Below, one piece after another: positions 28,937 to 46,090 of a stretch of DNA of 47,546 nt. Under the pieces are notes generated by a model. That model ran no database searches and was not told where the DNA came from. It worked only from the letters and a program-made list of their open reading frames with translations. Made by a program: the position numbers and the translations under genes. Position 1 is the stretch's first letter, and each line of letters begins with the position of its first letter. Origin of the DNA: a virus; IMG/VR virus record IMGVR_UViG_3300032073_000051, positions 1 to 47,546 of that record, one strand, 5' to 3'.

Positions 28937-29123
28937 AAACATATATATGAATTCATGCACATCTATTCATTGGTATGTCCGAGTCAAACATATATATGAA
29001 TTACTACCCATGAATACATACACAGTAATTAATACATAGCAATTCATGCACATTTATACATTCATACGATGTCATATGCATCAAATCATATATACCTATT
29101 CATAATAATGAATTCATACACAG
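28937..29123. repeat. Iteron-like repeats in the divergent region (candidate replication origin)
   Basis: AAACATATATATGAATT occurs exactly twice (28937-28953, 28986-29002), AATTCATGCACAT exactly twice (28950-28962, 29041-29053), and TGAAT-A/T-CATACACAG twice (29011-29025, 29109-29123). All lie in a strongly AT-rich stretch with no open reading frame between the divergent blocks. Direct repeats in an AT-rich gap suggest origin or initiator-binding sites. No protein matching an initiator is identified; T7-like phages start replication near their early promoters. Confidence 0.5.
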
Positions 29124-29155
29124 TTTTAAAATGATGTACTTTTCAATGAAATTCT

Positions 29156-29173
29156 CAAGCATTTAATTGCTTG
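29156..29173 (+). repeat. 18-bp palindromic repeat, copy 1
   Basis: CAAGCATTTAATTGCTTG, six-base arms (CAAGCA/TGCTTG) around TTTAAT; the flanking bases T and A extend the stem by one pair. It lies upstream of the early promoter rather than in the leader, unlike copies 2 and 3. See copies at 29312, 30228, 33586 and 40770. Confidence 0.9.
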
Positions 29174-29208
29174 AAAAACCCTTTAAAATCAAGGCATTTA
29201 AAAATAAG

Positions 29209-29236
29209 TTGACAGGCTTTCAAATCTATGGATAAT
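29209..29236 (+). promoter_or_regulatory. Strong sigma70-like early promoter (TTGACA, 16 bp, GATAAT)
   Basis: TTGACA at 29209-29214, spacer of 16 bases, GATAAT at 29231-29236. This is a near-consensus host-type promoter, with a likely start near 29243, reading towards the early block. Because no phage RNA polymerase is found, early genes should be read by host polymerase. The similar promoter at 30176-30203 has the same spacer and -10. Confidence 0.7.
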
Positions 29237-29242
29237 AGTAAG

Positions 29243-29430
29243 TATTCCTAGTGACATTGATTTAGCCGGCATGGATAACCGGCACAAGCTGAAAGGCTTG
29301 TTTCTAGCTTTCAAGCATTTAATTGCTTGAGTTTAACAATTCGGAATTACTGCATTATTACTGGCACTGCTAGTAAGTAATGCCAGTATTAAGTATGTAA
29401 TTCTTTACTTTTAATAAATGGAGAATAACA
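29243..29430 (+). promoter_or_regulatory. Structured 5' leader of the first early gene
   Basis: The roughly 190-nt leader contains four consecutive inverted repeats: GCCGG/CCGGC (29265-29283), ACAAGC/GCTTGT (29284-29301), the 18-bp palindrome copy 2 (29312-29329) and TACTGGCA/TGCCAGTA (29359-29388), before GGAG and the ATG at 29431. Such a run of stems is unusual in a compact phage genome. It suggests RNA processing, stability or regulation. Confidence 0.55.
29312..29329 (+). repeat. 18-bp palindromic repeat, copy 2
   Basis: CAAGCATTTAATTGCTTG, with T and A flanks that extend the pairing. It lies in the leader of the first early gene, 101 nt before its ATG, downstream of the TTGACA promoter. 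Confidence 0.9.
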
Positions 29431-30090
29431 ATGAAAGACTTAATACCTAATGATGTAGTAGAACTTAGCAAGACTGAAATAATTAAATCAATTAACAAGG
29501 CTGAAAACACTGAAAGCCTTGAGATTTTAAAGGCTGTAAAGGCTGTTGGAACTAAGAAAAAAACAATGCGTAACAAAGTGAGAAAAACATTGTCAACGCT
29601 TAGTGCTGATGGTAAGAGCCTTGCGAAATTGCATGAAATTGAATTAGTTATGAATTGCTTAAAAGTTGAAAAGTTAATCGATGATATGAAATCATTAAAA
29701 TCATGCATAGAATGGGTTTTTAATGATTTAGTCAAGGATGATAGCCAGCCATTTTTCCAAAAAGAAAACAGGCAATCTATGAAAAATGTTGAAATCAACA
29801 CTTTACAGCCTTGCGTTATGTCTCCAATGCTTAAGCCTAAGGTAAAACCTAAGGCTGAAATCGTTGAGGATATAAGCGACATTGATTTAAAAATTAACTT
29901 GACAGCAGATAATGACAATAAATTTCAATCTAAGAATAAAATCTTTTTTGAAAGTCATTGTGAACTAGATGAAAATAATGAATTAGTGATTAATGATGAG
30001 ACATTCAATGCCACTATGGAGTTATTCAAGGCTTTTCAGAGCGAAATAAGAAAAGCCCGTTTAAATGCTATTAAAGTCAAAGCTAAGTAA
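29431..30090 (+). CDS. First early protein, unknown (219 aa)
   Basis: The 219-residue protein begins MKDLIPNDVVELSKTEIIKS. It is Lys-rich and mostly helical, with no cysteine clusters or recognised catalytic motif. A linker (MLKPKVKPKAEIVEDISD) separates two helical parts. GGAG lies seven bases before the ATG. It is transcribed alone from a strong promoter and followed by a strong terminator, so it is probably expressed immediately after infection, a typical position for host-takeover factors. Lower GC and Lys-rich use differ from the later early genes. Function unknown. Confidence 0.6.
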   Translation: MKDLIPNDVVELSKTEIIKSINKAENTESLEILKAVKAVGTKKKTMRNKVRKTLSTLSADGKSLAKLHEIELVMNCLKVEKLIDDMKSLKSCIEWVFNDLVKDDSQPFFQKENRQSMKNVEINTLQPCVMSPMLKPKVKPKAEIVEDISDIDLKINLTADNDNKFQSKNKIFFESHCELDENNELVINDETFNATMELFKAFQSEIRKARLNAIKVKAK

Positions 30091-30097
30091 TGCTACT

Positions 30098-30129
30098 AAA
30101 ACCCAGCCTTAAAAAGCTGGGTTTTTTTT
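30098..30129 (+). terminator. Rho-independent terminator after first early gene
   Basis: ACCCAGC and GCTGGGT pair across an eight-base loop, followed by a run of eight T (30122-30129). Classic intrinsic terminator, making 29431-30090 a single-gene transcription unit. Confidence 0.9.
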
Positions 30130-30175
30130 GTGCCTTTAAAAATTAATAACTGAAATGGGATGGGATAGATTTCAT

Positions 30176-30203
30176 TTGACTTATTGGTTTTTGTATGGAT
30201 AAT
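30176..30203 (+). promoter_or_regulatory. Sigma70-like promoter (TTGACT, 16 bp, GATAAT)
   Basis: TTGACT at 30176-30181, 16-base spacer, GATAAT at 30198-30203. The start would be near 30210, so the palindrome at 30228 lies about 18 nt into the transcript. Follows the terminator directly, starting a new early unit. Confidence 0.65.
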
Positions 30204-30227
30204 TAAGTACATCAATCAAACAAACCC

Positions 30228-30245
30228 CAAGCATTTAATTGCTTG
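30228..30245 (+). repeat. 18-bp palindromic repeat, copy 3
   Basis: CAAGCATTTAATTGCTTG flanked by C and G, which add a pair. It is 17 nt before the ATG at 30263, so it sits in the 5' untranslated RNA close to the ribosome site AGGAGG. Confidence 0.9.
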
Positions 30246-30262
30246 GATAACACAGGAGGACT

Positions 30263-30460
30263 ATGCAACAATATGATACGATGAAAGAATACCTAACCGA
30301 TTTACATATAGATGATTGGGATAGGAAAATGCAAGAGAGTCTATGGTATGTCGCTGATGACTCAGGACTTACAATGTTAGATGATGTAGATTTTGAAACA
30401 GCTAATGTATATGCAAGCAAGCATGACGGATGCTATGCATACATGAAAACAAAAGACTAG
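30263..30460 (+). CDS. Small acidic early protein (65 aa)
   Basis: 65 residues, starting MQQYDTMKEYLTDLHIDDWD, acidic overall with a short C-terminal positively charged tail. AGGAGG lies three bases before the ATG, after the 18-bp palindrome. No recognised family. Position suggests early host-interaction. Confidence 0.6.
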   Translation: MQQYDTMKEYLTDLHIDDWDRKMQESLWYVADDSGLTMLDDVDFETANVYASKHDGCYAYMKTKD

Positions 30461-30687
30461 CAAGTTTCTCTCCATAGGCTTGCTTTGTCCTGAGTATGAC
30501 AGTAAACTGCTCAATTTTGTTTTAGTTGTTACAAGCTATCCACCTTTATAGGTGATGAGAATACTATTAAACTGACCTCTTGCGATAGCTAGTAAGTCGG
30601 TGCAAAGTTGTAAAAAATATGGGCTATTGCTATTTACTCTAGAGGGCGATAGCCTATACTCTTTATAACTAAAGTGGAGGTTTGCCT
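30461..30687 (+). other. Non-coding gap with multiple stem-forming segments
   Basis: About 227 bp with no usable frame, between the 65-aa gene and the next early gene (ATG 30688, GGAGG). It holds the structured segment listed separately (30529-30654). No terminator poly-T is visible. Confidence 0.7.
30529..30654 (+). ncRNA. Candidate structured RNA / switch-like leader
   Basis: Complementary segments seen: TTACAA (30529-30534) with TTGTAA (30608-30613); AGCTATC (30534-30540) with GATAGCT (30584-30590); CACCT/AGGTG (30541-30554); ACTGAC (30571-30576) with GTCGGT (30596-30601), which interlocks with the previous stem like a pseudoknot; GGCTATTGC (30622-30630) with GCGATAGCC (30646-30654). Two copies each of a GCTAT-like and a GCGATAGC-like element allow alternative pairings. 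It precedes the gene at 30688. I recognise no known riboswitch. Inference from complementarity only. Confidence 0.4.
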
Positions 30688-31347
30688 ATGCAAACAATTA
30701 AAATTGGTGAGTTTGAATACTCAAGAACTAAGATAAAGAATAATATTCTTAGGGTGTATGCTGATAGCCTAGAGTCAGAGAAAAATGACTGGTATAAAGA
30801 AGCCAATACCTTTGGCTCCCAAGTATCAGATTTTCTTTCTGCCTTTAGTAGATTAAGTGTATCAAAGCGTAAGGTATTAGGAATTGTCTCGGCTCTGTCA
30901 CCTCTTAAAGAGTGGAATAAAAACAAGGAGTTGGCTGTTGATTTGATTTTGTCTGGTGATTGTGGACACATGAAAAACAACAAGCAAAAAGCACTTGATA
31001 TTCTTGCACTGAAGAATGACAAGCCTATTGTTATGGATAAAAAAATCTTAGGTATACTTAATGGGGATAAAACAAAAAGATTTTATTTAAACATGATGTA
31101 CCCATCTGGCAGTGGTGCTACTCTGTTTAGTAGTCTTTATCCCGGAGGAGGTGTTACTGTGGATAGGCATGCTATTGCAATTGCGATAGGCCGAACTGCA
31201 ACAGAGATAGAACAGGTATTAACACCTAACAAGTATACTTTTATAGAAAATTGCTATAAAATAACTGCTGATGCACTGGGATTGACACCCTTGCATCTGC
31301 AATCTATTACTTGGCAAGCGTGGAAACGCATTAAGAAGGAGGTGTAA
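30688..31347 (+). CDS. HhH/DNA-glycosylase-like phage protein (219 aa)
   Basis: Start at ATG 30688 because GGAGG lies upstream; a TTG at 30682 is the first open codon. The 219 residues include KILGILNGDKTKRFYLNMM, then PGGGVTVDRHAIAIAIGRTA and a final QSITWQAWKRIKKE. These elements resemble the helix-hairpin-helix/glycosylase-like proteins of marine phages (DUF7178-type), with a conserved D-R-H near residue 158. Catalytic activity is unproven; a role in DNA repair or host DNA attack is conceivable. Confidence 0.5.
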   Translation: MQTIKIGEFEYSRTKIKNNILRVYADSLESEKNDWYKEANTFGSQVSDFLSAFSRLSVSKRKVLGIVSALSPLKEWNKNKELAVDLILSGDCGHMKNNKQKALDILALKNDKPIVMDKKILGILNGDKTKRFYLNMMYPSGSGATLFSSLYPGGGVTVDRHAIAIAIGRTATEIEQVLTPNKYTFIENCYKITADALGLTPLHLQSITWQAWKRIKKEV

Positions 31348-31544
31348 TGGCCGATATGACTGGTAGAAACTGGGAAAGTGGCCATGAACTTATAGATGTT
31401 GCTGTAATGCTGAGGAAACTCAGGTATTTACAGCAGGATGCAGACTTTGAGGATAATGCAAAGGATTATGCATACTATAAGGGCATGGCTGACTATTACC
31501 AAGAGCTGTCCGACAAGGGACAGGAATTTAATGTTAATTTTTAA
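31347..31544 (+). CDS. Small early protein (65 aa)
   Basis: 65 residues, beginning MADMTGRNWESGHELIDVAV, acidic and Tyr-rich (KDYAYYKGMADYYQELSDK). Its ATG overlaps the stop of the previous gene. Part of a run of small overlapping early genes of unknown function. No domain recognised. Confidence 0.6.
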   Translation: MADMTGRNWESGHELIDVAVMLRKLRYLQQDADFEDNAKDYAYYKGMADYYQELSDKGQEFNVNF

Positions 31545-31553
31545 GGAGGATGT

Positions 31554-31829
31554 ATGAGTTTTATGGAAATGTTTGAAGAAGCAAATGCTAAACCTAGCAT
31601 AGATGTTACTACTCTAAAGAAAGATGAGTGGTATATTATTGACTTGATGGGGATGAATGTCCGAGCCAAGTTAATGAGTTCGCCAAGGCAAGGCAAGGGA
31701 TGGAAGAAAACTGTAATGATGGATGTGCGTGGCTCTGATGTGGGTATGTATGATGAGATGGGCAGTGTATATGTGTCCAAGATTATAGAACATTACCCCG
31801 GTGGGGCTGGAGGATACAGTCATGCGTAA
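31554..31829 (+). CDS. Small early protein (91 aa)
   Basis: 91 residues, beginning MSFMEMFEEANAKPSIDVTT, with a strand-rich middle (EWYIIDLMGMNVRAKLM) and a Gly-rich end. AAGGAGG lies before the ATG. It overlaps the next gene. Unknown function; position as for neighbours. Confidence 0.6.
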   Translation: MSFMEMFEEANAKPSIDVTTLKKDEWYIIDLMGMNVRAKLMSSPRQGKGWKKTVMMDVRGSDVGMYDEMGSVYVSKIIEHYPGGAGGYSHA

Positions 31830-31998
31830 GGAAAAAACTTATCACTGTTGTGTTGATGTAACATATACACAATGGATATATGTGGATGCTGAGAGTCAGG
31901 AGGAAGCTGTCAAGGCTGCGAAAGATGAAGCCATTGACATGCACCCCAACTCTTTAGTCTTGAATAAAGTTGAAGTGTTTGATGCTTATGCAGAATAG
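31822..31998 (+). CDS. Small early protein (58 aa)
   Basis: Start set at ATG 31822 (GGAGG eight bases upstream), giving MRKEKTYHCCVDVTYTQWIY and then a helix (AESQEEAVKAAKDEAIDM). The layout is a small two-strand/one-helix alpha-beta fold. It resembles the 82-aa protein downstream (32785-33033), which has the same strand-helix pattern with DSPEDAEQIATDAV; these may be paralogues. Unknown function. Confidence 0.6.
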   Translation: MRKEKTYHCCVDVTYTQWIYVDAESQEEAVKAAKDEAIDMHPNSLVLNKVEVFDAYAE

Positions 31999-32377
31999 AT
32001 ACTATAGACTGGCATCAGGCAGAGAAGTAACTGTATATGATGTAATGGATGCTACTGGGCTGTCAAAGCCCGGTGCATACAAGAGATTAGCACTGAACAG
32101 GGATGATGAGACTGTATTCCTAAAAGCAGGTGCTTTGTTGGGTATGAAACAGGCTAAAAGCAAGTGGGTTAGTGAGCCAGTGCGAGTAGTTATGGGCATA
32201 CCCATCAATCCTAGTTACTTGGATGGTGTAGTAAAGGGAAACTCTATGTATAATAGAGATGGTGAACTGATGAAGTATGGTGCAAGATGTGCACTAGTCA
32301 GGTACAACGCTAAACTCAGGAAAGAATGGAGGGATAGCACACCTAATATTAAAAACAAGGAGCGATATGGCGGATAA
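31982..32377 (+). CDS. Possible HTH DNA-binding early protein (131 aa)
   Basis: Start at ATG 31982 (GAAG six bases upstream); the frame is open earlier. The N-terminal half reads YDVMDATGLSKPGAYKRLAL, a plausible helix-turn-helix (A-T-G-L-S-K-x-G-A), followed by a basic C-terminal half (RYNAKLRKEWRDSTPNIKN). It could be a small regulator or DNA-binding protein. A candidate to act on the repeats in this arm, but that is speculation. Confidence 0.5.
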   Translation: MLMQNRYYRLASGREVTVYDVMDATGLSKPGAYKRLALNRDDETVFLKAGALLGMKQAKSKWVSEPVRVVMGIPINPSYLDGVVKGNSMYNRDGELMKYGARCALVRYNAKLRKEWRDSTPNIKNKERYGG

Positions 32378-32540
32378 GTATTTAAAATTGTATGACGAAT
32401 GCAATAAAATGAGGGCTGAACTTGACCAAGAAGTAAAAAATGTGACTGGTGATAAAGAGTTGGAGGTATTTCTTGATAAAGTTGAGCGATTGAAAAGTAA
32501 ATATAATAAACTCAGAGAGTTGGAGGATGTATGGACATAA
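32367..32540 (+). CDS. Tiny coiled-coil protein (57 aa)
   Basis: ATG 32367-32369 overlaps the end of the previous gene; stop TAA 32538-32540 overlaps the next start. 57 residues, MADKYLKLYDECNKMRAELD, then a helix (LEVFLDKVERLKSKYNKL). AAGGAG lies before the ATG. Short and helical, unknown function. Confidence 0.55.
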   Translation: MADKYLKLYDECNKMRAELDQEVKNVTGDKELEVFLDKVERLKSKYNKLRELEDVWT

Positions 32541-32809
32541 CAATATATGCAAGTGATGTAAGAAACTTTGATGATGAAGTAGAGAGACACTTCAATGTCG
32601 AGGAATGGTTTGGCCACAAGTTATTTGATGAGCATGACAGGCTTAGTCTAGATAACTATGACTATGCAGTTGACCCTCGGTCATACATAGGTATAATGGT
32701 AGATATGCAGGAGCAAATCCATGACCTGCGTAGCCAGATAGAACTACAGAAAAAGTGGATTAAAAATAGAGAGGAGGTAGAAAGATGGGATGGTTCAATG
32801 TTAAAATAA
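32531..32809 (+). CDS. Small early protein (92 aa)
   Basis: 92 residues, acidic, beginning MDITIYASDVRNFDDEVERH, with a C-terminal helical coiled-coil-like part (IMVDMQEQIHDLRSQIELQ). The ATG follows GGAGG. It overlaps both neighbours. No family recognised. Confidence 0.55.
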   Translation: MDITIYASDVRNFDDEVERHFNVEEWFGHKLFDEHDRLSLDNYDYAVDPRSYIGIMVDMQEQIHDLRSQIELQKKWIKNREEVERWDGSMLK

Positions 32810-33033
32810 AACTAACACAAGAGTCAGTGTTTAATGTAGATGTAGAAGCTGACAGCCCTGAGGATGCAGAGCAAATAGCTACTGATGCTGTATGGGATGA
32901 TGATTACGCTGATGATATAAGGTCAACACTTGAGATTACTGATGAAGAGTATGATGCTGATGAGTGGTGTCGTGAGTGTGACAAACCTATTGATTACTGT
33001 GAATGTGAGGAGGATAAAGATGAATCCGAATAA
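32785..33033 (+). CDS. Small acidic protein with C-terminal Cys pairs (82 aa)
   Basis: 82 residues. Two beta strands and a helix at the N terminus (MGWFNVKIKLTQESVFNVDV; SPEDAEQIATDAV), then acidic repeats and C-x-x-C plus C-E-C (WCRECDKPIDYCECEED), a possible zinc-binding knuckle. GAGGAGG precedes the ATG. The N-terminal part resembles the 58-aa protein at 31822. Function unknown. Confidence 0.6.
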   Translation: MGWFNVKIKLTQESVFNVDVEADSPEDAEQIATDAVWDDDYADDIRSTLEITDEEYDADEWCRECDKPIDYCECEEDKDESE

Positions 33034-33220
33034 CAACAAGCACTTCAACGATGAGGCTCTTAGAATTAACAGGATGTTAAAGAAAGAGAACGACAAGCTA
33101 AGGGATGTGATTAAAGAAATGGATGAGTACATACTGCATTATGTCGTGTATAATATAGACAGTGCTGAGGAAGACAGGCAACTGGGTAGAATACAACAAT
33201 TAATACGGGAGGTATTGTAA
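33020..33220 (+). CDS. Small coiled-coil early protein (66 aa)
   Basis: Start set at ATG 33020 (GAGGAGG upstream) rather than a longer frame. Begins MNPNNNKHFNDEALRINRML with a helical, charged body. The short overlap with the preceding gene fits this compact cluster. Unknown function. Confidence 0.55.
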   Translation: MNPNNNKHFNDEALRINRMLKKENDKLRDVIKEMDEYILHYVVYNIDSAEEDRQLGRIQQLIREVL

Positions 33221-33418
33221 ATGGCTGATATAAATGGTGTTGAGCGTACATATGCTAACAAGGATGAGTACGATTTCGAGGGTGGTGAGTACGATAGTAA
33301 TGAGGTAGATGCTATAATGCAGAGCGAAGAATATAAGCGAGAGCATATGGACTTTAGTGAACTACTACTAAATGATTATATAAAGAATAAAGATAGGTGG
33401 ATACAAAGAAACCTGTGA
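33221..33418 (+). CDS. Small acidic early protein (65 aa)
   Basis: 65 residues, beginning MADINGVERTYANKDEYDFE, acidic at the N terminus, with aromatic residues, and a basic end (KNKDRWIQRNL). Last gene of the small-gene run; its stop overlaps an extended -10 promoter element. Unknown function. Confidence 0.55.
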   Translation: MADINGVERTYANKDEYDFEGGEYDSNEVDAIMQSEEYKREHMDFSELLLNDYIKNKDRWIQRNL

Positions 33419-33510
33419 TATAATAATACTTAGTATATATACTAGGTATGCCTATGATGTTACTATTAGTAAGTAGTATATAGTATATATTCTAGGTGTA
33501 CCTAGTTAGT
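33416..33510 (+). promoter_or_regulatory. Extended -10 promoter and CTAG-rich repeats before SSB
   Basis: TGATATAAT (33416-33424) is an extended -10, overlapping the preceding stop codon. Downstream lie CTTAGTATATATACTAGG and GTAAGTAGTATATAGTATAT (33469-33488), the latter matching 28681-28700 at 18 of 20 bases, then TTCTAGGTGTACCTAG. The arrangement mirrors the terS control region, suggesting that one regulator acts on both. Inference. Confidence 0.5.
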
Positions 33511-33514
33511 ATCT

Positions 33515-33561
33515 CTAGAAGTGCTACAGTTTTTCTTCCATTTTTTCTGTGGCACTTCTAG
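33515..33561 (+). terminator. 15-bp inverted repeat hairpin (terminator or regulatory)
   Basis: CTAGAAGTGCTACAG (33515-33529) pairs with CTGTGGCACTTCTAG (33547-33561) with one G-T pair, around a T-rich 17-base loop. It is symmetric enough to act in either direction. No T-run follows on the plus strand, so termination is uncertain; insulation of the SSB transcript is one reading. Confidence 0.5.
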
Positions 33562-33585
33562 TGGTATTAATACTGCTAGTAGGGT

Positions 33586-33603
33586 CAAGCATTTAATTGC
33601 TTG
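33586..33603 (+). repeat. 18-bp palindromic repeat, copy 4
   Basis: CAAGCATTTAATTGCTTG, flanked by T and G (a U-G wobble pair) and then G and C. It ends 30 nt before the SSB start codon, in the 5' untranslated region. Confidence 0.9.
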
Positions 33604-33633
33604 GCATTGATGTTAATTATAAAGGAGATGTAT

Positions 33634-34020
33634 ATGTCAGAAGCAATGACACTAACTGGTAAGGTTGTATTCAACCATGTAACTAAGCCCGATAACTTCA
33701 AAGGTACAGAGAGATATGCTCTTACCATTGCGTTGGATAAGGCAGGTAAGAAACTGGCTGAGAAAGCAGGCTTGAAGACCAATGAGTATGATGGTAATGT
33801 ACAGATTACTAGTCGCAGGAAGATAGACTTTGACCGACCTAAGATTTACAATGTAGACAAGGAAGAGGTTGGTGTTGGTCACTTATCTTTGTATGGAGAT
33901 ACTGTATCCATGCGAGTCAAGCAGGGTAAGGGAGACTACAGCGAGTACACCTACTTGGAGGCTATTCGTGTAGAAGAGAAGGCGGATGGAGTTGAGGACT
34001 TTGACCCATCTGAATTCTAA
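33634..34020 (+). CDS. Single-stranded DNA-binding protein, T7 gp2.5-like (128 aa)
   Basis: Start at ATG 33634 (AAAGGAG six bases upstream), giving MSEAMTLTGKVVFNHVTKPD. An OB-fold-like strand set (TLTGKVVFNHV; YALTIALDKAG; GNVQITSRRKI) is followed by an acidic aromatic tail VEDFDPSEF, the hallmark of gp2.5-type ssDNA-binding proteins that recruit polymerase and helicase. It protects single-stranded DNA during replication. It is expressed as a single unit between a hairpin and a terminator. Confidence 0.75.
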   Translation: MSEAMTLTGKVVFNHVTKPDNFKGTERYALTIALDKAGKKLAEKAGLKTNEYDGNVQITSRRKIDFDRPKIYNVDKEEVGVGHLSLYGDTVSMRVKQGKGDYSEYTYLEAIRVEEKADGVEDFDPSEF

Positions 34021-34041
34021 TTCTGACTAGGCTGTTAAACA

Positions 34042-34070
34042 GGGGCATCTTCGGATGCCCTTTATTATTT
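34042..34070 (+). terminator. Rho-independent terminator after SSB
   Basis: GGGCATC pairs with GATGCCC across a TTCG tetraloop (34043-34060), followed by TTTATTATTT. Strong structure, moderate U-tract. It would limit readthrough to primase-helicase, explaining a separate, high level of SSB. Confidence 0.85.
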
Positions 34071-34086
34071 TAGTAAGGGAGAAAAT

Positions 34087-35739
34087 ATGGAAAATAAATT
34101 ACTCCGCAAGGAGCAGTGCCCCGACTGTGCTAAGGATGGTGGTGACACTAGCAAGGATAACATGGCTGTCTATTCAGATGGACAGACACATTGCTATGCT
34201 TGTAACACACACGGATTTGTTGAGCACAAAGAAAAGGTACAGGTAGCAGAGACTACCAAAAAGAAAGACTGGTTGGCAGAGTACAACAGAGGTGATTACT
34301 ATGCACTGCCTGATAGAAAGCTAAGAGCCGAGACACTTGAGAAGTACAAGGTCAAGTCAGAGATGGATGGCAAGGGCAAGATAATCAAACACCACTACCC
34401 TAATCACAACAAGAAAGGTGAGATGGTGGGTGTAAAGACTAGGATAGTAGCCAACAAGCAATTCTTTGGGGCAGGCAAGACTGATGCAACAAACCAGCTG
34501 TTTGGTCAGAGTTTGTTCAGAGCAGGTGGTAAGTTTGTTACCATATGTGAGGGCGAGCTAGATGCTATGGCTAGCTACGAAATGTTTGGCTCTAAGTTTG
34601 CTTGTGTTAGTGTGGTTAATGGTTCCCATTGTGTGGATAACATCAAGGCTAACCTTGAATGGCTTGATTCCTTTGAGACTGTAGTGTTGTGCTTTGATAG
34701 TGATGAGTCAGGTAGGAAAGCTGCGAAGTTGGTAGCACCTATACTTGGTCCAAATAAATGTAAGATACTTACACTGGCCAAGCACAAGGATGCATGTGAT
34801 TACCTAAAGAGTGGTGATGGCAAAGCATTCTATGATGAGTGGTGGAATGATGCCAAGCCATACACTGTGAGTGGTGTGGCTACTATCGAGGACATGCGTA
34901 ATGCCATGATGAACTACCGGGATACAGAACTAATACCTCTGCCCGATTCGTTTGGTAATCTCAATGAGATGATGCGTGGTGGTGTAGCTAGAGGTGAGTT
35001 AGTTAGTATCATTGCACACACCAGTATAGGTAAGACCACCATACTTAATGAATTAATCTACCACTTTGCATACAAGACGGATGAAAAGATAGGTTGTTTC
35101 ATGGTTGAGGATAACATAGACGAGACCATTAGAAAGGTGGTGAGTGTACACACTGGTGAGAATATGCAGTTGACCAAGCCTAATGATTTAGATGTTGATG
35201 GTATTATGGACAACGCTATTGACATAGGATTTGGCTCACAGATACAGCTACATAATGATGGTGGTGGTAGTATAGACTTAGAAGAAATGTTTGCAAAGAT
35301 TAGATACTTCATTAAGGGAGTTGGTTGTACTGTTATACTTGTAGACCCACTACATACTGCCATTAAGAACCTGAGCAACGAGAACATTGAGGAAGTTATG
35401 GATAGATTTATTAAGCTGTGCAAGGAGACAAAGGCTACAGTCATACTGTCTACCCATACAAGAAAGCCTGACGATGGCTCCCACCCTCATAAGATTAGTG
35501 AGTATGATGTCAAGGGTAGTGGTGCTATACCACAGGCATGCCATACCAACATACTATTCTCAAGAGACAAGTTGGCAGAGGATGAGTACGAGAAAAACTC
35601 TACTAGGATACGAGTGCCTAAGATGAGAAGGACTGGACAGACTGGTGAAGCAGGCTGGGCATACTTCAATGGTGAGACTGGTAGACTAGAGAAAGGACAC
35701 AATCCTATAGCCGATGGAGGTGGCGATGCGGACTTTTAG
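34087..35739 (+). CDS. Primase-helicase, T7 gp4-like (550 aa)
   Basis: 550 residues. Seen: an N-terminal Cys4 zinc site (C11-x2-C14, C36-x2-C39) for template recognition; TOPRIM region with CEGELDAMASYEM and CFDSDESGRKAA acidic residues; RecA-like helicase with Walker A HTSIGKTT and Walker B ILVDPLHT, followed by STHTRKP. It synthesises primers and unwinds DNA at the fork as a hexamer. It overlaps the polymerase gene by 14 bp. Zinc, TOPRIM and helicase domains are all intact. Confidence 0.9.
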   Translation: MENKLLRKEQCPDCAKDGGDTSKDNMAVYSDGQTHCYACNTHGFVEHKEKVQVAETTKKKDWLAEYNRGDYYALPDRKLRAETLEKYKVKSEMDGKGKIIKHHYPNHNKKGEMVGVKTRIVANKQFFGAGKTDATNQLFGQSLFRAGGKFVTICEGELDAMASYEMFGSKFACVSVVNGSHCVDNIKANLEWLDSFETVVLCFDSDESGRKAAKLVAPILGPNKCKILTLAKHKDACDYLKSGDGKAFYDEWWNDAKPYTVSGVATIEDMRNAMMNYRDTELIPLPDSFGNLNEMMRGGVARGELVSIIAHTSIGKTTILNELIYHFAYKTDEKIGCFMVEDNIDETIRKVVSVHTGENMQLTKPNDLDVDGIMDNAIDIGFGSQIQLHNDGGGSIDLEEMFAKIRYFIKGVGCTVILVDPLHTAIKNLSNENIEEVMDRFIKLCKETKATVILSTHTRKPDDGSHPHKISEYDVKGSGAIPQACHTNILFSRDKLAEDEYEKNSTRIRVPKMRRTGQTGEAGWAYFNGETGRLEKGHNPIADGGGDADF

Positions 35740-37450
35740 TTGTGACATAGAGACAGATGGACTAGACCCTAGTGTTGTATGGTGTATAGCTGTGCAAGAT
35801 GTAGACTCGGGACAGGTCATTACCTTTTCAGGTACTACCCTAGGTTTGTTCAAGCCTTGGATGGCATCAGAGGTAGACTGTCTCGTGTTTCATAATGGCA
35901 TTGGTTTCGATGTTCCAGTACTGACTCGATTGTGTGACATAGACTTTAGTGATGTCCAAGTAGAGGACACATTGGTGATGAGTCAGTTAGATGAGCCACG
36001 CAGAGAGGGTGGCCACTCACTTGCTAGTTGGGGTGAACGTCTAGGATTTGACAAGGGAGACCACGAAGACTGGTCCAAGTTTAGTGAAGAGATGTTGTCG
36101 TATTGTATAAGAGACACTGAGATAACAACCAAGCTATACAGAAGACTGAGGCTAAGAGAACTAAGTCAAGATGCACTGGAACTTGAGTACGCTATAAAGA
36201 AACACTGCACACAACAAGAGAACAATGGGTGGCACTTTGATTTTCATGGTGCAATGATGTTGCTACAAGATATTAATGAGGACTTGCGTAGTGTGGAAGA
36301 GGAAGTGCATAAGACATTCACACCACTTGCAGTGTGGAAAAGCAAGACACCGGTCAAGAACAGGTGGAAGAAAGGTGGTGGCAGGACTGTAGCATATCAA
36401 GCAGAGGTGGACTTACAGTGTCACACCAATGATGATGATGATTATGGGTACTGGCACTACCCTGAGTTTAATCTAGGTAGTAGACAGCAGGTGGGCAGGT
36501 ACTTAATGCACTATGGTTGGAAACCTACAGAGTTTACTAACACAGGACTACCAAAGGTAGACGAGGGTACGCTCAAGGATGTTGACATACCTGAGGCCAA
36601 GTTGATAGCTAGGTACTTGATGCTACAGAAAAGACAGGGTCAGGTCAGCAGTTGGATAGATGAGTACAACCACACAACAGGAAGAATACATAGCAGAGTG
36701 CACACAATGGGAACTGTCACGCACCGCATGTCTAGTAGTAACCCGAACTTACAGCAAGTTACTGCAAGTAACAAGGAGTACGGACAAGAGATGCGTGGTT
36801 TGTTTACTGTTCCTGATGACAAAGTAATTGTAGGTGCTGACCTCAGTGGACTGGAGCTTAGATGTCTTGCCCACTATATGAAAGATGACAACTACACAGA
36901 AGAGATACTTAGTGGTGACATACACACAGCCAATCAAAAAGCTGCTGGACTTGCTACTCGTGATGAGTCCAAGCGATTCATCTATGCTTACCTGTATGGT
37001 GGCGGTGACAATCTGATAGGAAACATATGTGGTGGTGGCAAAGAACTGGGTAAGAAAGTAAAGGCACAGTTTCTAGACAATACACCAGCACTGCGTAACC
37101 TAAGAGTACGCATTGAAAAAGCCAGCAAGCGTGGCTGGATTAAGACACTTGATGGTCGCAAGGTACATGTGCGTAGTCCACACTCAGCACTGAACTTCTT
37201 GTTGCAGAGTGCAGGCTCAATCATAGCCAAGAGAGCGTGGGTTATATTTCATTCTCTTGCTAAGGACTATGAATACAAGCAGTTAGGTGTGATACATGAT
37301 GAGATACAGATAGAGTGTGACTCATCAGATGCAGATGCAGTAGGCAAGCTAGTGGTTAAAGCAATGGAAGACACCACTAACTATTACAAATTAAACTGCC
37401 CGATTACAGGTGAGTATAAAATAGGTAAAACATGGAACGAGACGCACTAG
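35726..37450 (+). CDS. Family A DNA polymerase with 3'-5' exonuclease, T7-like (574 aa)
   Basis: Start at ATG 35726 (GGAGG five bases upstream). The exonuclease domain has DIETDGL, FHNGIGFD and YCIRDTEITTKLY (Exo I-III acidic residues). The polymerase has motif A (ADLSGLELRC), motif B (RDESKRFIYAYLYGGG) and motif C (VIHDEIQI). At the position equivalent to E. coli Pol I Phe762, Tyr420 is present, as in T7. The 574-residue length fits a compact T7-like polymerase lacking a 5'-nuclease domain. It replicates the phage DNA with the gp4-like and SSB proteins. Confidence 0.9.
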   Translation: MRTFSCDIETDGLDPSVVWCIAVQDVDSGQVITFSGTTLGLFKPWMASEVDCLVFHNGIGFDVPVLTRLCDIDFSDVQVEDTLVMSQLDEPRREGGHSLASWGERLGFDKGDHEDWSKFSEEMLSYCIRDTEITTKLYRRLRLRELSQDALELEYAIKKHCTQQENNGWHFDFHGAMMLLQDINEDLRSVEEEVHKTFTPLAVWKSKTPVKNRWKKGGGRTVAYQAEVDLQCHTNDDDDYGYWHYPEFNLGSRQQVGRYLMHYGWKPTEFTNTGLPKVDEGTLKDVDIPEAKLIARYLMLQKRQGQVSSWIDEYNHTTGRIHSRVHTMGTVTHRMSSSNPNLQQVTASNKEYGQEMRGLFTVPDDKVIVGADLSGLELRCLAHYMKDDNYTEEILSGDIHTANQKAAGLATRDESKRFIYAYLYGGGDNLIGNICGGGKELGKKVKAQFLDNTPALRNLRVRIEKASKRGWIKTLDGRKVHVRSPHSALNFLLQSAGSIIAKRAWVIFHSLAKDYEYKQLGVIHDEIQIECDSSDADAVGKLVVKAMEDTTNYYKLNCPITGEYKIGKTWNETH

Positions 37451-37496
37451 TTATAGGGTAAAATACATACTAATTTTAATGAGAGGAGAAGAGACT

Positions 37497-38303
37497 ATGA
37501 AGTCTATAAACACACTAATCCCTGACATCTACAATGTCATGGAGTCCAAGCAGTACGATGGTGACTTGAACTCTATTGCAATGCAGGCAGGTAGGGAAGT
37601 AGAAGATGCAATCAGAGATGCATTCACACCAAGAGAAGACAACAGAGGTTTGCGTATGTCTGGTATAGGTAGGTGTGAAAGAGCACAGTGGTACAGTTAT
37701 AAAGGACACACCCCTGAACCAATCAAGGGTGAGGTATACCTGACTTTCTTACAAGGTCATGTACTAGAGGCTGTGCTTGTAGCTTTGATTAAACTATCAG
37801 GACATACAGTAACAGACCAGCAAAAGAAACACACGATTGAAGGTGTCAATGGTTCTCAGGATTGTACGATTGATGGTGAGTTAGTTGACATCAAGACAGC
37901 AAGTGCTTGGTCTTGGGAAAACAAATTCAAAGAGTCAGGCATAGCTGACGATGCGTTTGGTTACATCAAGCAACTGTCTGCTTATGGTAAAGGAGACAAG
38001 AGAAAGAAAGGATACTTCCTTGCTTTGAATAAAAACAAATCAACACTTAAGTTATGTGAGCAAGAACTAGAAAAAGACATAGACACTTACATCGTTGACT
38101 TGAAAGCTAAGATGGAATCAGACACACCACCTATGAGACTAGCTAACGCTACAACTTGGAACAAAGCTAAGACAGAAGAAAAGCTATGCATGACATGTGC
38201 GTTCTGTGGTTTTAAAGAGGATTGCTTTGGTAGTTTAGAAGCTAGGCCTATACCGTCTGGCAAAATAACTAATTACTTTGTAACAAACGGAGCCAACTTT
38301 TGA
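37497..38303 (+). CDS. PD-(D/E)XK exonuclease, Cas4/RecB-nuclease-like (268 aa)
   Basis: Start at ATG 37497 (AGGAG upstream), beginning MKSINTLIPDIYNVMESKQY. Seen: a nuclease core CTIDGELVDIKTASAW (D-x(n)-E-L-V-D-I-K-T), and cysteines near the C terminus (CMTCAFCGFKEDC), which with C68 (GRCERAQW) could bind an Fe-S cluster as in Cas4/AddB-type nucleases. It fits a T7 gp6-like role in degrading host DNA or processing ends. Confident fold, inferred role. Confidence 0.75.
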   Translation: MKSINTLIPDIYNVMESKQYDGDLNSIAMQAGREVEDAIRDAFTPREDNRGLRMSGIGRCERAQWYSYKGHTPEPIKGEVYLTFLQGHVLEAVLVALIKLSGHTVTDQQKKHTIEGVNGSQDCTIDGELVDIKTASAWSWENKFKESGIADDAFGYIKQLSAYGKGDKRKKGYFLALNKNKSTLKLCEQELEKDIDTYIVDLKAKMESDTPPMRLANATTWNKAKTEEKLCMTCAFCGFKEDCFGSLEARPIPSGKITNYFVTNGANF

Positions 38304-38473
38304 AACAACTACCAGAACTAAAGGCATACATCGCATCAACATATGATGTGTGCCTTATATGTGACGAGCTAGAGATTGAACCTCAAGAATTACTAGATGC
38401 TTTTGAAAAGAGACTGATAGAAAAACAAGACAGGTTTCTTGAGGACTTTGAGGAGAGCACATGGACTACATAG
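38300..38473 (+). CDS. Small protein with TTG start (57 aa)
   Basis: TTG at 38300-38302 overlaps the stop of the nuclease gene (TTGA), with GGAG seven bases upstream. The product reads KQLPELKAYIASTYDVCLIC after the initiating residue, then EPQELLDAFEKRLIEKQDRF, helical and acidic. Small proteins with a similar LPELK...ELLDAFE pattern occur in marine phages. The frame is uninterrupted and ends overlapping the next start. Unknown function. Confidence 0.65.
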   Translation: MKQLPELKAYIASTYDVCLICDELEIEPQELLDAFEKRLIEKQDRFLEDFEESTWTT

Positions 38474-38661
38474 AACTAAGTCTGTCTTTCATATTGCTAG
38501 GTGCTGTTGGCATTTATGTCACACACAAGAGAGCATATGAAAAAGGAATTACTGATGCTGTGCTCATGCATAGAACAGGAAGATTAAAATATAGAGACTA
38601 TCTAGATGACAACGGTGACAAGATGGTAGACATAGAGATAGAACCACTGGAGGATGAATGA
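38461..38661 (+). CDS. Small single-pass membrane protein (66 aa)
   Basis: 66 residues. MDYIELSLSFILLGAVGIYV gives one N-terminal transmembrane segment followed by a basic, charged tail ending IEPLEDE. GAGG lies before the ATG. Upstream of the ribonucleotide reductase gene, overlapping it by 4 bp. Function unknown. Confidence 0.6.
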   Translation: MDYIELSLSFILLGAVGIYVTHKRAYEKGITDAVLMHRTGRLKYRDYLDDNGDKMVDIEIEPLEDE

Positions 38662-40622
38662 AAAAATTACCAACTGATTACCAAAACTTTATTGCTCTTA
38701 GCAGGTATGCGAGGTGGCTACCTGAAAAGAACAGGAGAGAAACGTGGGAAGAAACAGTAGCTAGGTACTTCGACTTTATGGAGGAGCACCTAAGAGAGAA
38801 CACTAACCAAGAGTTAGTACCCAAGACTCGTAAGATTCTTGAAGATGCAGTGCTTAACCTAGAAGTTATGCCTAGCATGAGAGCCTTGATGACTGCTGGC
38901 AAGGCACTTAAAGACAACAACATTGCAGGATATAACTGTGCTTACCTAAGCGTAGACCATCCCAAAGCATTTGATGAGTGCTTGTATGTACTCATGCATG
39001 GCACTGGTGTAGGCTTTAGTGTAGAGAGACAATTTATTAGAAAGCTACCAGAAGTACCAGAAGAAATGATTGATGTAGAAGACATTGTAGTTGTACAAGA
39101 CAGCAAGGAAGGCTGGCAGTCTGCGTTTAGAAAACTAATTACATACCTATACAACGGAGAAATGCCTAAGTGGGACTTCTCTAAGATTAGACCTAAGGGT
39201 GCAAGGCTTGCTACCTTTGGTGGCAGAGCCAGTGGACCAGAGCCATTGCTTGACTTGTTTAACTTCTCTACTAATCTATTTAAAGATGCAGTGGGCAGAC
39301 AGCTAACTAGCTATGAGTGTCATCGTATGATGTGTAAGATTGCAGAGGTTGTAGTAGTAGGTGGTGTGCGTAGGTCTGCACTAATCTCACTTAGTAACCT
39401 TACTGATGAGAGAATGCGTAGTGCCAAGTCTGGTCAGTGGTGGAGTGATACACCTGAGATGGCACTGAGTAACAACAGTGTGTGCTATACAGAGAAGCCA
39501 GACATAGGAATCTTTATGAAGGAGTGGACTTCTTTGTACGAGTCCAAGTCAGGTGAGCGTGGAATCTTTAACAGAGAAGCAGCAATTAAACAAGTAGCTT
39601 CTATAGGTAGACGTGACACTGACCATGAGTTTGGTTGTAATCCTTGTAGTGAAATCATCCTAAGAGATGGCCAGTTTTGTAACTTAACAGAGGTAGTGGT
39701 GCGTGCAGAAGACACACAGAAAGATATCCTCCGTAAGACAAGATTAGCCACCATACTGGGCACGTTTCAAGCAAGTCTTACAAACATTAAAAGACTTCGC
39801 CCTAAATGGGTACATAATACAGAGGAAGAAGCACTACTTGGTGTGTCATTGACTGGCATAATGGACAATGCGTTTATGAATGGTAGTAGTGAGGACAGAG
39901 GTTACTATGGCAAGAGAAGTTTGCCTGACTTCCTGTCTGACCTAAGAAAAGAGACAGTCAAAATTAATGAGCATTGGTCAGAGCTGTTGGGCATTAGTCA
40001 GTCTACTGCAACCACAGCCATCAAGCCTAGTGGTACAGTTAGTCAGTTGGTTGACAGTGCTAGTGGTGTACATACTAGACACAGTGACTACTATATACGC
40101 AGAGTTAGGGCAGATAGAAAAGACCCTATAGCCAGACTAATGGAAGACCAAGGCATACCTGCTGAAAATGATGTAATGAAACCTAACAGTGTCAAGGTGT
40201 TCTCGTTTCCTATGAAGGCTCCTGATGGTGCTGTTACTAGAAACGAAAGGAATGCTATTGAACAGCTAGAGCTGTGGCTTACATACCAAAGATACTACTG
40301 TGAGCACAAGCCTAGTGTAACCATAAGTGTCAGAGAACACGAGTGGATGGAAGTAGGAGCTTGGGTATACAAACACTTTGATGAGGTAAGTGGAGTTAGT
40401 TTCTTACCACACTCAGACCACACATACCAGCAAGCACCATACGAAGAGTGTGACAAAGAAACACACGACAAGTTGCTTAGTGAAATGCCTGAGGCAGTTG
40501 ACTGGGATTTGATTAGTGAGTACGAGCTTACTGACCAGACAGTAGGAACTAAGACTCTTGCTTGTACTGGTAGCGTGTGTGAGTTAGTTGATTTAGTAGA
40601 AGAAGAGAGGGACACGGAATGA
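38658..40622 (+). CDS. nrdJ: Adenosylcobalamin-dependent (class II) ribonucleotide reductase (654 aa)
   Basis: 654 residues. Seen: MPSMRALMTAGKALKDNNIA and YNCAYLSVDHPKAFDECLYV, HGTGVGFSVE, GGVRRSALISL, and the catalytic NPCSEI (Asn-Pro-Cys-x-Glu) loop. The C terminus holds the Cys pair TLACTGSVCELVD used for re-reduction. This is the monomeric RTPR-type class II enzyme, which reduces ribonucleotides to deoxyribonucleotides using vitamin B12 and needs no oxygen or small subunit. It supplies dNTPs during replication. Typical of marine podoviruses. Confident. Confidence 0.88.
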   Translation: MKKLPTDYQNFIALSRYARWLPEKNRRETWEETVARYFDFMEEHLRENTNQELVPKTRKILEDAVLNLEVMPSMRALMTAGKALKDNNIAGYNCAYLSVDHPKAFDECLYVLMHGTGVGFSVERQFIRKLPEVPEEMIDVEDIVVVQDSKEGWQSAFRKLITYLYNGEMPKWDFSKIRPKGARLATFGGRASGPEPLLDLFNFSTNLFKDAVGRQLTSYECHRMMCKIAEVVVVGGVRRSALISLSNLTDERMRSAKSGQWWSDTPEMALSNNSVCYTEKPDIGIFMKEWTSLYESKSGERGIFNREAAIKQVASIGRRDTDHEFGCNPCSEIILRDGQFCNLTEVVVRAEDTQKDILRKTRLATILGTFQASLTNIKRLRPKWVHNTEEEALLGVSLTGIMDNAFMNGSSEDRGYYGKRSLPDFLSDLRKETVKINEHWSELLGISQSTATTAIKPSGTVSQLVDSASGVHTRHSDYYIRRVRADRKDPIARLMEDQGIPAENDVMKPNSVKVFSFPMKAPDGAVTRNERNAIEQLELWLTYQRYYCEHKPSVTISVREHEWMEVGAWVYKHFDEVSGVSFLPHSDHTYQQAPYEECDKETHDKLLSEMPEAVDWDLISEYELTDQTVGTKTLACTGSVCELVDLVEEERDTE

Positions 40623-40762
40623 TACACACCATAGTATTAATAATAGCAATGCAAGTTATTGTTGTTACACTAACAGGGTGTGCTACATTAGAAGATAAGA
40701 TGCAACAGCTTCAATGTCACGCACCAGTAGATTCAAGTATGTGCACAGGCTGGCAGACTTGA
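40619..40762 (+). CDS. Small lipoprotein (47 aa)
   Basis: ATG 40619-40621 overlaps the reductase stop (ATGA); stop TGA 40760-40762. The product MIHTIVLIIAMQVIVVTLTG then CATLEDK carries a signal peptide with lipobox L-T-G-C, so Cys21 should be lipidated. Two further cysteines (QCHAP; MCTGW) follow. Resembles outer-membrane or Rz1-like small lipoproteins. Function unknown; early position suggests superinfection exclusion or envelope interaction. Confidence 0.6.
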   Translation: MIHTIVLIIAMQVIVVTLTGCATLEDKMQQLQCHAPVDSSMCTGWQT

Positions 40763-40769
40763 TGTGTCC

Positions 40770-40787
40770 CAAGCATTTAATTGCTTG
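40770..40787 (+). repeat. 18-bp palindromic repeat, copy 5
   Basis: CAAGCATTTAATTGCTTG flanked by CC and GG, extending the stem by two G-C pairs. Ends 29 nt before the ATG at 40817. Confidence 0.9.
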
Positions 40788-40816: not shown

Positions 40817-41059
40817 ATGTTAGAAAAAATAAAGAACGGTGCTGACGGAGCAATAGATGTTGGCATTAAGTTAATTAGCTTATCAATTATATTACAAGTA
40901 ATCTTTGGACCAAAGGTAGCTTTCCTAACAGGAGATGTAATTGGTTCTATACTAGGTATAGTATGGACTTTAGGAAATGGTGGACTGGCCGGCATCATCG
41001 CAGCTGTCATCATCTGGAAGTTACTCGACAAAGATATTGTCGATGAGCTTAAAGACTAA
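40817..41059 (+). CDS. Small two-segment membrane protein, holin-like (80 aa)
   Basis: Start at ATG 40817 (AAAGGAG upstream). 80 residues, beginning MLEKIKNGADGAIDVGIKLI with two hydrophobic segments (LISLSIILQVIFG; GGLAGIIAAVIIWKLL). The layout fits small marine-phage membrane proteins, sometimes annotated as holins, but its early-arm position is odd for a lysis gene. It follows repeat copy 5. Confidence 0.55.
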   Translation: MLEKIKNGADGAIDVGIKLISLSIILQVIFGPKVAFLTGDVIGSILGIVWTLGNGGLAGIIAAVIIWKLLDKDIVDELKD

Positions 41060-41401: not shown

Positions 41402-41805
41402 AGATAAAGGGAGTGCTTCCATTACCCACATACACAAAGGGAAGAGGAGACAAGAAGAAAACAAATCTTCTTAGTCTTAATGTATTTAGAAACCTACACC
41501 ATTTTTCTAAGAACAAAGTCAAGCAAGACTATGCTGACCTAGTAAGAGAGTTTGTAAAGACACTACCTAAATACAAAACAATACAGCCTAGCTACACACT
41601 GTACTTTAATAACAACAGAAAGAAAGACTTGGACAACTATACGTTTCCTATGCACAAGTTCTTAATGGATACATTAGTTGAAGAGGGTGTCATTGAAGAT
41701 GACCATTATGATTTTGTTACTGAGATTACCACAGAGTTTGGTGGTATTAATGATGACAACTATGTTGTTGTAGAAATAAAGGGAGAAGAGCATGTCGCTA
41801 AATAA
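41398..41805 (+). CDS. RusA-like Holliday junction resolvase (135 aa, complete copy)
   Basis: 135 residues, GTG start overlapping the DUF3310 stop (GTGA). Seen: PLPTYTKGRGDKKKTNLLSL, the DLDNYTFPMHKFLMDTLVEE stretch with the D-x-D-N acidic core, and VIEDDHY. These are the RusA metal-binding residues. Cleaves branched DNA during replication and packaging. Nucleotides 41663-41805 are repeated at 1-143. Confidence 0.85.
   Translation: MKIKGVLPLPTYTKGRGDKKKTNLLSLNVFRNLHHFSKNKVKQDYADLVREFVKTLPKYKTIQPSYTLYFNNNRKKDLDNYTFPMHKFLMDTLVEEGVIEDDHYDFVTEITTEFGGINDDNYVVVEIKGEEHVAK
41663..41789. repeat. Exact 127-nt repeat of 1-127
   Basis: Identical to bases 1-127; see that entry. Marks the closure point between lap one and lap two: the preceding sequence (up to 41662) is lap-one unit; the following 5.8 kb are a diverged second version of 128 onward. 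Confidence 0.9.
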
Positions 41806-42190
41806 AAGCAAGGACATTAAAGAGATGCGTAAGTTTGATGTTGACCTAGAGTTTGGTCAGCAATGGGAGAAGTATGTAGATGAGTTGTTCTCTGGTGCTA
41901 AGAAGTGTGAGATTAAAACAGAGAGAGACACATGGGCCAAGACCGGCAACATATGTATTGAAGTTGAAAGCTATGGTAAGCCATCAGGGTTAGCCAGCAC
42001 AGAGGCTGATGTTTGGGTACACAATCTAGTTAAAGACAATGAGCTGTGTGCTAGTCTTGTGTTTAATACAGACAAGCTACGCAAAGTAATCGAAGAGATG
42101 AAACCTTTTACAGTATATGGTGGTGACAACAAAGCATCTAAGCTACACCTAGTTGATATAAATAAACTACTTAACGCTATCGCAACCTAG
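41792..42190 (+). CDS. Putative PD-(D/E)XK-type nuclease/resolvase-like protein (lap 2 copy)
   Basis: 132 residues, identical to the copy at 130-528 except one residue, though scattered synonymous changes are seen. The E-x-K core (CEIKTERDTW) is preserved. It converges with the methyltransferase gene, with the same 14-bp overlap as in lap one, so the arrangement is conserved between strains. Confidence 0.65.
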   Translation: MSLNKSKDIKEMRKFDVDLEFGQQWEKYVDELFSGAKKCEIKTERDTWAKTGNICIEVESYGKPSGLASTEADVWVHNLVKDNELCASLVFNTDKLRKVIEEMKPFTVYGGDNKASKLHLVDINKLLNAIAT

Positions 42191-42821
42191 TAACAACAAC
42201 ACCGACATCTCCAGAAGATGTCTCAGAAACTTTAAAGTCCGGCCCAAGAATTGACCTTATGAAGTCCATTAGTTCTTGCTTGGTAAATCCTTTTTGGAAT
42301 GTGTCCTTGCCAGTAATTACTCCGTCTTGATAAGGTCTTGGGTTGACAAGACTTTTTAAGAATCCCCTACCTCTAGCCATAATAACAGCCTTGCCTCCAA
42401 CAGCTAGGCTCTTGCCTATTCCCCTGACTGCCTCAACTCTTTGTTGTCTAGGTAGTACATTCAATACAGCATTATTAATTACACCATTGTATTCTCTGCT
42501 AATTTGAGATGCGTCTGTGTATGTAGGTGTAAACCCACCTTTTGGAAATGGCTCAAAAGAATCAAAGCCCATTTCTTCAGATGCCCTGCCTAAACCTGCA
42601 CCATAATCAAGTATATCCTCAGCAGGCACATCCTTAAAGTGCTTATCCTTTACCTTTCTGTATGTACTTACAGTATTAGAAACTTGAGTGTCACCTGATT
42701 TAGTAATGTCATAACCTTGCTCTGACATTTCCATGTCATTGTCTATGCTCTTCTGCATTTCAGGAAACACTTGTGTCTCTATGAATCCATTACCCGTACC
42801 CATTGCACATACCTTAGGCAT
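42177..42821 (-). CDS. Class I SAM-dependent methyltransferase-like protein (lap 2 copy)
   Basis: 214 residues, clearly homologous to 515-1159 but with many substitutions (DYGAGLGRASEEMGFDSFEP). The SAM-binding motif I and VINNAVLNVLP are kept, as is the conserved N terminus MPKVCAMGTGNGF. Divergence is concentrated in the middle and C-terminal substrate-side regions. Same length, same neighbours. Confidence 0.75.
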   Translation of the reverse strand: MPKVCAMGTGNGFIETQVFPEMQKSIDNDMEMSEQGYDITKSGDTQVSNTVSTYRKVKDKHFKDVPAEDILDYGAGLGRASEEMGFDSFEPFPKGGFTPTYTDASQISREYNGVINNAVLNVLPRQQRVEAVRGIGKSLAVGGKAVIMARGRGFLKSLVNPRPYQDGVITGKDTFQKGFTKQELMDFIRSILGPDFKVSETSSGDVGVVVTRLR

Positions 42822-46078: not shown

Positions 46079-46090
46079 ACTAACTATTCC

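Follow-up and report, generated by a model that had tools for sequence, protein, structure and literature searches.

Why would a phage genome carry the same 18-bp palindrome several times, and only in gaps between its early genes? This question is raised by the window analyzed here, namely the whole 47,546-nucleotide stretch of the IMG/VR virus record IMGVR_UViG_3300032073_000051 (hereafter W), in which CAAGCATTTAATTGCTTG is present exactly five times (sites 1 to 5, or op1 to op5), always on the plus strand and in a single orientation. In W, the late genes (terminase, portal, capsid and tail) form a minus-strand block and the early genes a plus-strand one, which notably encodes primase/helicase, DNA polymerase, a Cas4-type exonuclease and ribonucleotide reductase. 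From the comparison of W with related contigs, designated by L-numbers, we consider it likely that the palindromes are DNA operators of a phage-encoded, probably dimeric and autoregulating regulator of 219 amino acids, which would lower early transcription and whose gene would be exchanged as a cassette, the distal operators following.

Five Identical Palindromes in the Early Arm

A scan of W for CAAGCATTTAATTGCTTG gave 10 matches over both strands versus 0.15 expected and, with up to three mismatches allowed, no further copy was found on either strand except the same five sites read in reverse. All five copies are intergenic, gaps making up 6.4% of the genome (p ~1e-6 for five chance gap hits). 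Each is composed of the arms CAAGCA and TGCTTG around an incompletely symmetric center, TTTAAT, and the nearest outer base pairs are, from site 1 to site 5, T-A, T-A, C-G, T-G and C-G. These observations agree with an earlier note made on this sequence alone, which had described five identical copies (at 29156, 29312, 30228, 33586 and 40770), their confinement to plus-strand early gaps, the outer base pairs and the proximity of copies 3, 4 and 5 to a start codon, for which we measured 17, 30 and 29 nt against the 17-30 nt given. The random frequency that the same note had envisaged is far below the abundance found. The palindromes are a real set of elements, very probably functional.

Different Palindromes at the Same Positions in Relatives

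When a viral collection was scanned for the exact 18-mer, eight contigs were recovered, including near-identical strains, relatives with 80-92% identity and L007, which has the 18-mer yet shows no DNA match to W. Relatives were also collected via the primase (80) and via the terminase small subunit (64), and most of them are without the 18-mer, which the earlier note had expected at the same positions in close relatives, taking its absence to speak against the element. Many of these relatives have, in the equivalent gaps, another repeated palindrome, with one type per genome (CACTTCTTGAAGTG is one of these alternative types; others are given in Table 1). That another, matching palindrome takes the place of the 18-mer speaks for an operator more strongly than any other evidence. 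The conservation first ascribed to the 18-mer hence holds within W, for identity as well as orientation, and not among relatives, where orientation varies and the sequence is replaced.

Across relatives, the palindromes are 14-20 bp long and occur in 3-5 copies, in the early arm only. A de novo search for palindromes with at least three copies near the locus was positive for 28 of 75 real contigs versus 5 of 225 dinucleotide shuffles; the repeated AAGCCCC..GGGGCTT of L043, L056, L063, L094 and L097, which is terminator-like, was left out of the operator counts. In ten genomes, sites are 98% alike within a genome and 61% alike between genomes at the same position. Regarding their placement, op4 precedes the primase start by 501-502 bp in five genomes (W, L017, L019, L022 and L023), irrespective of its sequence. 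No close cultured relative was found by DNA or by regulator protein, and no prophage was found in genomes searched via the terminase small subunit.

Palindrome Type Tracks a Single Gene

Palindrome type tracks one gene, located at 29431-30090 and bracketed by sites 1 and 2 on one side and site 3 on the other. The adjoining terminase small subunit (TerS) is 87-94% identical among nine sampled relatives, and the gene to its right splits into families that resemble one another little or not at all. Between W and L019, identity is 43-67% in windows over 28.9-30.2 kb, a block that holds op1, op2, the 29431 gene and op3, versus about 90-99% in the flanks. The distal sites op4 and op5, 4 and 12 kb from this cassette, lie within 95-99% identical DNA and are altered only inside the palindrome: at each site, differences affect 4 of the 18 bases of the palindrome versus 3-4 per 120 bases of flank (Fisher p 0.006 and 0.010), the same four bases being changed at both, among them positions 3 and 16, which form a pair. 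Flanking DNA groups W with L019 and L017 with L022; the op4 sequence is identical in L019 and L022, in step with their regulators, which are the closer pair.

Over 29 genomes, operator distance follows regulator distance (Mantel r 0.885; partial 0.88 given TerS; reached in 0 of 5000 permutations), its correlation with TerS distance being -0.03 when the regulator is held constant; part of this signal is supplied by the linkage of op1-op3 to the regulator gene, so that op4 and op5, in six or seven genomes, are the sole independent tests. L020 has a CACTTC-type cassette together with an L019-type op4 (TACGCATTTAAATGCGTG), in local DNA 100% identical to that of L019. Such a hybrid would be the expected trace of a recent cassette swap, a chimeric assembly being also possible. 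Independently of L020, L157 combines a CACTTC-type cassette with a W-like terminase, at 97% identity. As judged from these sequences, near-identical phages exchange the regulator cassette.

A binding site for a host factor is out, for among near-identical genomes the type of palindrome goes with a gene of the phage. Nor can another early gene set the specificity, as genomes with different operators have these genes in common: the helix-turn-helix (HTH)-like protein of 135 aa encoded at 31970-32377 is near-unchanged in L019 and L020, whose operators differ, and genes 31554-31829 and 33020-33220 are each shared by genomes with differing operators.

In other relatives (L059, L079, L053, L070, L033, L049, L054, L058 and L074), the terminase is followed, as first large early gene, by one for a conserved Cys-rich protein of 200-240 aa that is of a different kind, and none of these nine contigs was found to have a repeated palindrome with three solid copies.

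The Candidate Regulator and the Surrounding Signals

The 219-aa product has no relative among Pfam, PHROG and PDB sequences. In the AlphaFold model, residues 9-130 form a helical domain with pLDDT mostly 75-90, and the C-terminal part, in which short strands and one long helix (189-218) appear, is poorly predicted. The proteins of W and L017 are near-identical over residues 40-130 and divergent beyond, with operator differences at positions 3 and 16; the C-terminal part is therefore the likely reader of the position 3/16 base pair. As a lead drawn from a small number of sequences, residue 194 may be a specificity position: CAAGCA types have A or H there, and CACGCA types have Y (5 of 5). When profiles of the regulator families were compared, families 1 and 2 gave a collinear but weak match (P 0.0055), and neither aligned with family 5; with such a weak match and none with family 5, we do not claim common descent. 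A Foldseek search with the family 2 model returned nothing of note.

Promoter-like and terminator-like sites around the gene are collected in Table 1 with the palindromes. The minus-strand element at 29102..29129, which faces the late block and is conserved in families 1, 2 and 5, is possibly a late promoter. Directly upstream of op4, a long hairpin (CTAGAAGTGCTACAG .. CTGTGGCACTTCTAG) is present at 33505-33555; it is unchanged in L019, and versions of it are found in L017, L022, L025 and L028, alongside other palindromes.

Table 1. Sites, signals and candidate regulator gene in W, and palindrome types of related contigs.
Feature	Genome	Position	Strand	Remarks
Candidate regulator gene (219 aa)	W	29431..30090	+	Covaries with palindrome type; helical N-terminal domain, variable C-terminal region
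Site 1 (op1), CAAGCATTTAATTGCTTG	W	29156..29173		Between minus-strand promoter-like element and regulator promoter; 257 nt before ATG of 29431 gene
Site 2 (op2)	W	29312..29329		In regulator-gene leader, ~70 bp past predicted start point; 101 nt before ATG
Site 3 (op3)	W	30228..30245		24 bp downstream of TTGACT..GATAAT promoter-like site; ends 17 nt before ATG at 30263
Site 4 (op4)	W	33586..33603		Ends 30 nt before ATG at 33634 (gene 33634-34020); 501 bp before primase/helicase ATG
Site 5 (op5)	W	40770..40787		29 nt before ATG of short membrane-protein-like gene (40817-41059)
Sigma-70-like promoter of regulator gene	W	29209..29236	+	TTGACA-16-GATAAT, 11/12; consensus match only
Sigma-70-like promoter upstream of op3	W	30176..30203	+	TTGACT-16-GATAAT; kept across relatives
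Promoter-like element	W	29102..29129	-	TTAAAA-16-TATTAT; consensus match, recurs in relatives
Intrinsic-terminator-like hairpin	W	30098..30125	+	After regulator gene; parts it from op3 promoter
Palindrome type CAAGCAATTAAATGCTTG	L016			
Palindrome type CACGCAATTAAATGCGTG	L017			
Palindrome type CACGCATTTAAATGCGTG	L019, L022			
Palindrome type CACTTCNNGAAGTG	L020, L023, L135, L157			
Palindrome type CACTACTTGTAGTG	L123, L124, L127			
Palindrome type TCGGAACACGTTCCGA	L032, L037, L045			
Palindrome type TCGTAACGCGTTACGA	L034			
Palindrome type TCGGAANNNTTCCGA	L036, L089, L105			
Palindrome type ATTAACCCGGTTAAT	L035			
Palindrome type CTCCGAAGTCCTCGGAG	L030			
Palindrome type ATATTGGCGCGCGCTAATAT	L028, L065, L095			

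Proposed Mechanism

Within a genome the arms are constant, and they differ between genomes, the centers being variable (TT, GT, AA; CACG, CGTG; TAG, CTA, TTA; TTTAAT, ATTAAA). Asymmetric sites are found in both orientations within one genome, and several sites are perfect palindromes through to the center. Symmetric arms kept within a genome, with center and orientation free, are general features of a phage regulator with palindromic operators. In addition, one-sided arm changes, which break RNA pairing, are present in L019 op1-3, L022 op2 and L025 op5, and no plus-strand promoter-like site is predicted between 28628 and op1 in W. Together, the specificity of the arms, the freedom of center and orientation, the one-sided changes and the lack of a sense promoter for op1 favor a dimer bound to duplex DNA.

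In the mechanism that we propose, the regulator would bind the symmetric arms in duplex DNA, just past early promoters and in early-gene leaders, and once bound would lower transcription, either by hindering initiation or as a roadblock to elongation. Sites just past start points and in leaders indeed fit repression or a roadblock better than activation. Through op1 and op2 the regulator would control its own gene, autorepression being suggested by the position of op2 in the leader of that gene. The cassette would be exchanged among related phages, after which the distal operators would shift to the new specificity, in a manner resembling heteroimmunity. Direct DNA binding, a dimer, repression, immunity and a benefit in coinfection or superinfection are all points that we infer.

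Several observations weigh against this proposal, besides the linkage of op1-op3 already mentioned. No DNA-binding domain is recognised in the 219-aa protein by sequence, its model is modest (pLDDT 67), and Foldseek with this moderate-confidence model gave no hit below E 0.5. No plus-strand promoter is predicted upstream of op5. Many contigs, some of them with genes of other families at the regulator position, have no clear repeated palindrome, and L012 has the operator of W though its regulator is only about 42% identical. Finally, arm mismatches read in the sense direction comprise 30 G-U versus 9 A-C, as an RNA stem would give, a bias that is not fully explained and in which many sites are related by descent.

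Alternative Readings

A timing switch, in which the protein would activate a minus-strand (late) promoter from op1 and repress early genes from op2-op5, is in our view unlikely, though it deserves the most attention among the alternatives. Family 1 has op1 immediately upstream of the conserved minus-strand TTAAAA..TATTAT element, with center distances near 20, 30 and 42 bp, that is, approximately helical turns. These distances are however few and related, the helical phase is not maintained in L028, L065 and L035, and the op1 of family 2 is found across the element, downstream from where transcription presumably starts. The phasing is thus a feature of family 1 only, not of families 2 or 5 or of L035, and supports a minor rival at most.

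We give a somewhat smaller chance to stem-loops in early mRNA leaders that would be bound by the 219-aa protein and would govern translation or mRNA stability. The position of sites 3-5 ahead of start codons, the G-U excess in the arms and the fact that the outer pairs of all W sites pair if G-U is allowed would be in keeping with such stem-loops. Nevertheless, specific arms with a loop free to change are the opposite of what most hairpin-binding proteins recognize, and the dual orientation of asymmetric sites, the perfect palindromes, the one-sided changes and the missing promoter ahead of op1 also stand against it. The earlier note had left the choice between a stem-loop and a dimer site: the dimer-bound DNA site is now favored and the RNA stem is less likely. 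Its suggestion of a shared early RNA element has accordingly lost ground, in spite of the G-U bias, and its other suggestion, that of an operator for a phage regulator not yet described, is well supported by palindromes that are genome-specific at shared positions and whose type goes with the gene flanked by sites 2 and 3.

In prophage N15, too, a phage protein binds inverted repeats that are scattered (SopB sites), and plasmid centromeres have genome-specific types. Dispersed partition sites of the N15 parS type, bound by a specific, autoregulated ParB-like protein, would account for scattered palindromes of this kind. We regard this as very improbable: ParA (PF13614) is absent in 14 records of the clade, with positive controls, the 219-aa protein matches neither ParB nor HTH, and the sites are unclustered, before start codons and after promoters. 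Functionless repeats that multiplied as a selfish element or through recombination might explain the exact identity of the five copies by recent spread, but they are hardly credible, being already contradicted by positions kept across genomes with unrelated palindromes, by matched changes at distal sites inside conserved flanks and by the association with one gene.

Comparison With Known Systems

Operators of the 219-aa regulator thus being the reading we prefer, the closest system in its working is that of cluster A mycobacteriophages (L5, Bxb1 and TipsytheTRex), with their stoperators and Rep immunity repressor (PMC6550527, PMC9283540). There, one repressor is matched to dispersed sites, many in short gaps away from promoters, with a subcluster-specific consensus diverging along with the repressor (PMC6550527). 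The sites are asymmetric and the repressor, a monomer, has an HTH (PMC9283540); its C-terminal region influences specificity, and bound repressor halts transcription elongation and confers superinfection immunity (PMC6550527, PMC9283540). The likeness lies in dispersed sites matched to one phage protein, here five sites over 11.6 kb. The sites differ in form, being 13-bp and asymmetric in about 26-30 copies in cluster A, versus palindromes in the W clade, and the cluster A repressor combines an N-terminal HTH with a Stoperator domain, whereas no HTH is detectable in the W-clade protein. Moreover, cluster A phages are temperate, whereas no integrase (PF00589) was found in 14 records of the W clade with positive controls, several of these records being fragments and serine integrases not having been separately sought. 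HTH_3 (PF01381) gave no match in 14 clade records, with controls positive in 14/14. The W-clade system is hence not a member of the cluster A stoperator systems, though it is most alike in working.

In lambdoid phages (lambda, 434 and P22), palindromic operators are read by dimers of CI and Cro, and the regulator is swapped with nearby operators as a cassette, which results in heteroimmunity. Palindromic operators and cassette exchange are shared with the W clade; the lambdoid early operators however lie within the swapped cassette, whereas the W clade has two that are 4 and 12 kb off and changed separately. In cluster K mycobacteriophages, the SAS/ESAS are repeated sequences that precede the start codons of non-structural genes, some with inverted repeats and with a subcluster-varying consensus; the SAS are 13-bp, non-palindromic, 3-7 bp from the start codon and in 11-19 copies, with no partner protein known (PMC3203893). 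The likeness to W sites is one of position only, the W palindromes standing 17-30 nt from the start with a partner gene indicated. Regarding N15, the scattered inverted repeats are the point of likeness, and the lack of a ParA or ParB relative here the difference. In the open-access literature, no account of such a system was found.

Other Features of the Record

W circles a genome of ~41.66 kb once and then runs into a second version of its own start: bases 1-479 recur exactly at 41663-42141, and 1-4306 and 41663-45968 match at 88% overall. L019 is closer to the second version (95% vs 88%). The record is probably an assembly fusing two strain variants, so that 42142-47546 should not count as extra genes. 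In the late block, two neighboring 2OG-Fe(II) oxygenase-like genes (15552-16738) are unusual cargo among tail genes, and a short direct repeat with a period of 60 is present at 6650-6770.

Concluding Remarks

What is new here is most likely the protein family, which is without known relative, the dispersed-operator mode of working being already known in kind. The locus offers a series of naturally matched regulators and operators, which includes swaps among nearly identical genomes as well as one hybrid whose parts do not match, and these pairs could serve as orthogonal synthetic repressors. Tentatively, and with somewhat less than even confidence, we suggest that a hypervariable, previously undescribed family of DNA-binding regulators without known fold may give immunity-type specificities in an uncultured clade devoid of integrase; once the cassette is swapped among near-identical phages and the distal operators are converted, coinfecting or resident relatives would select for new types, even in the absence of classical lysogeny. 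The series of pairs thereby brings within reach of experiment the questions of how a phage shifts the specificity of its repressor when the operators are scattered, and of why phages without lysogeny genes keep an immunity-like diversity.

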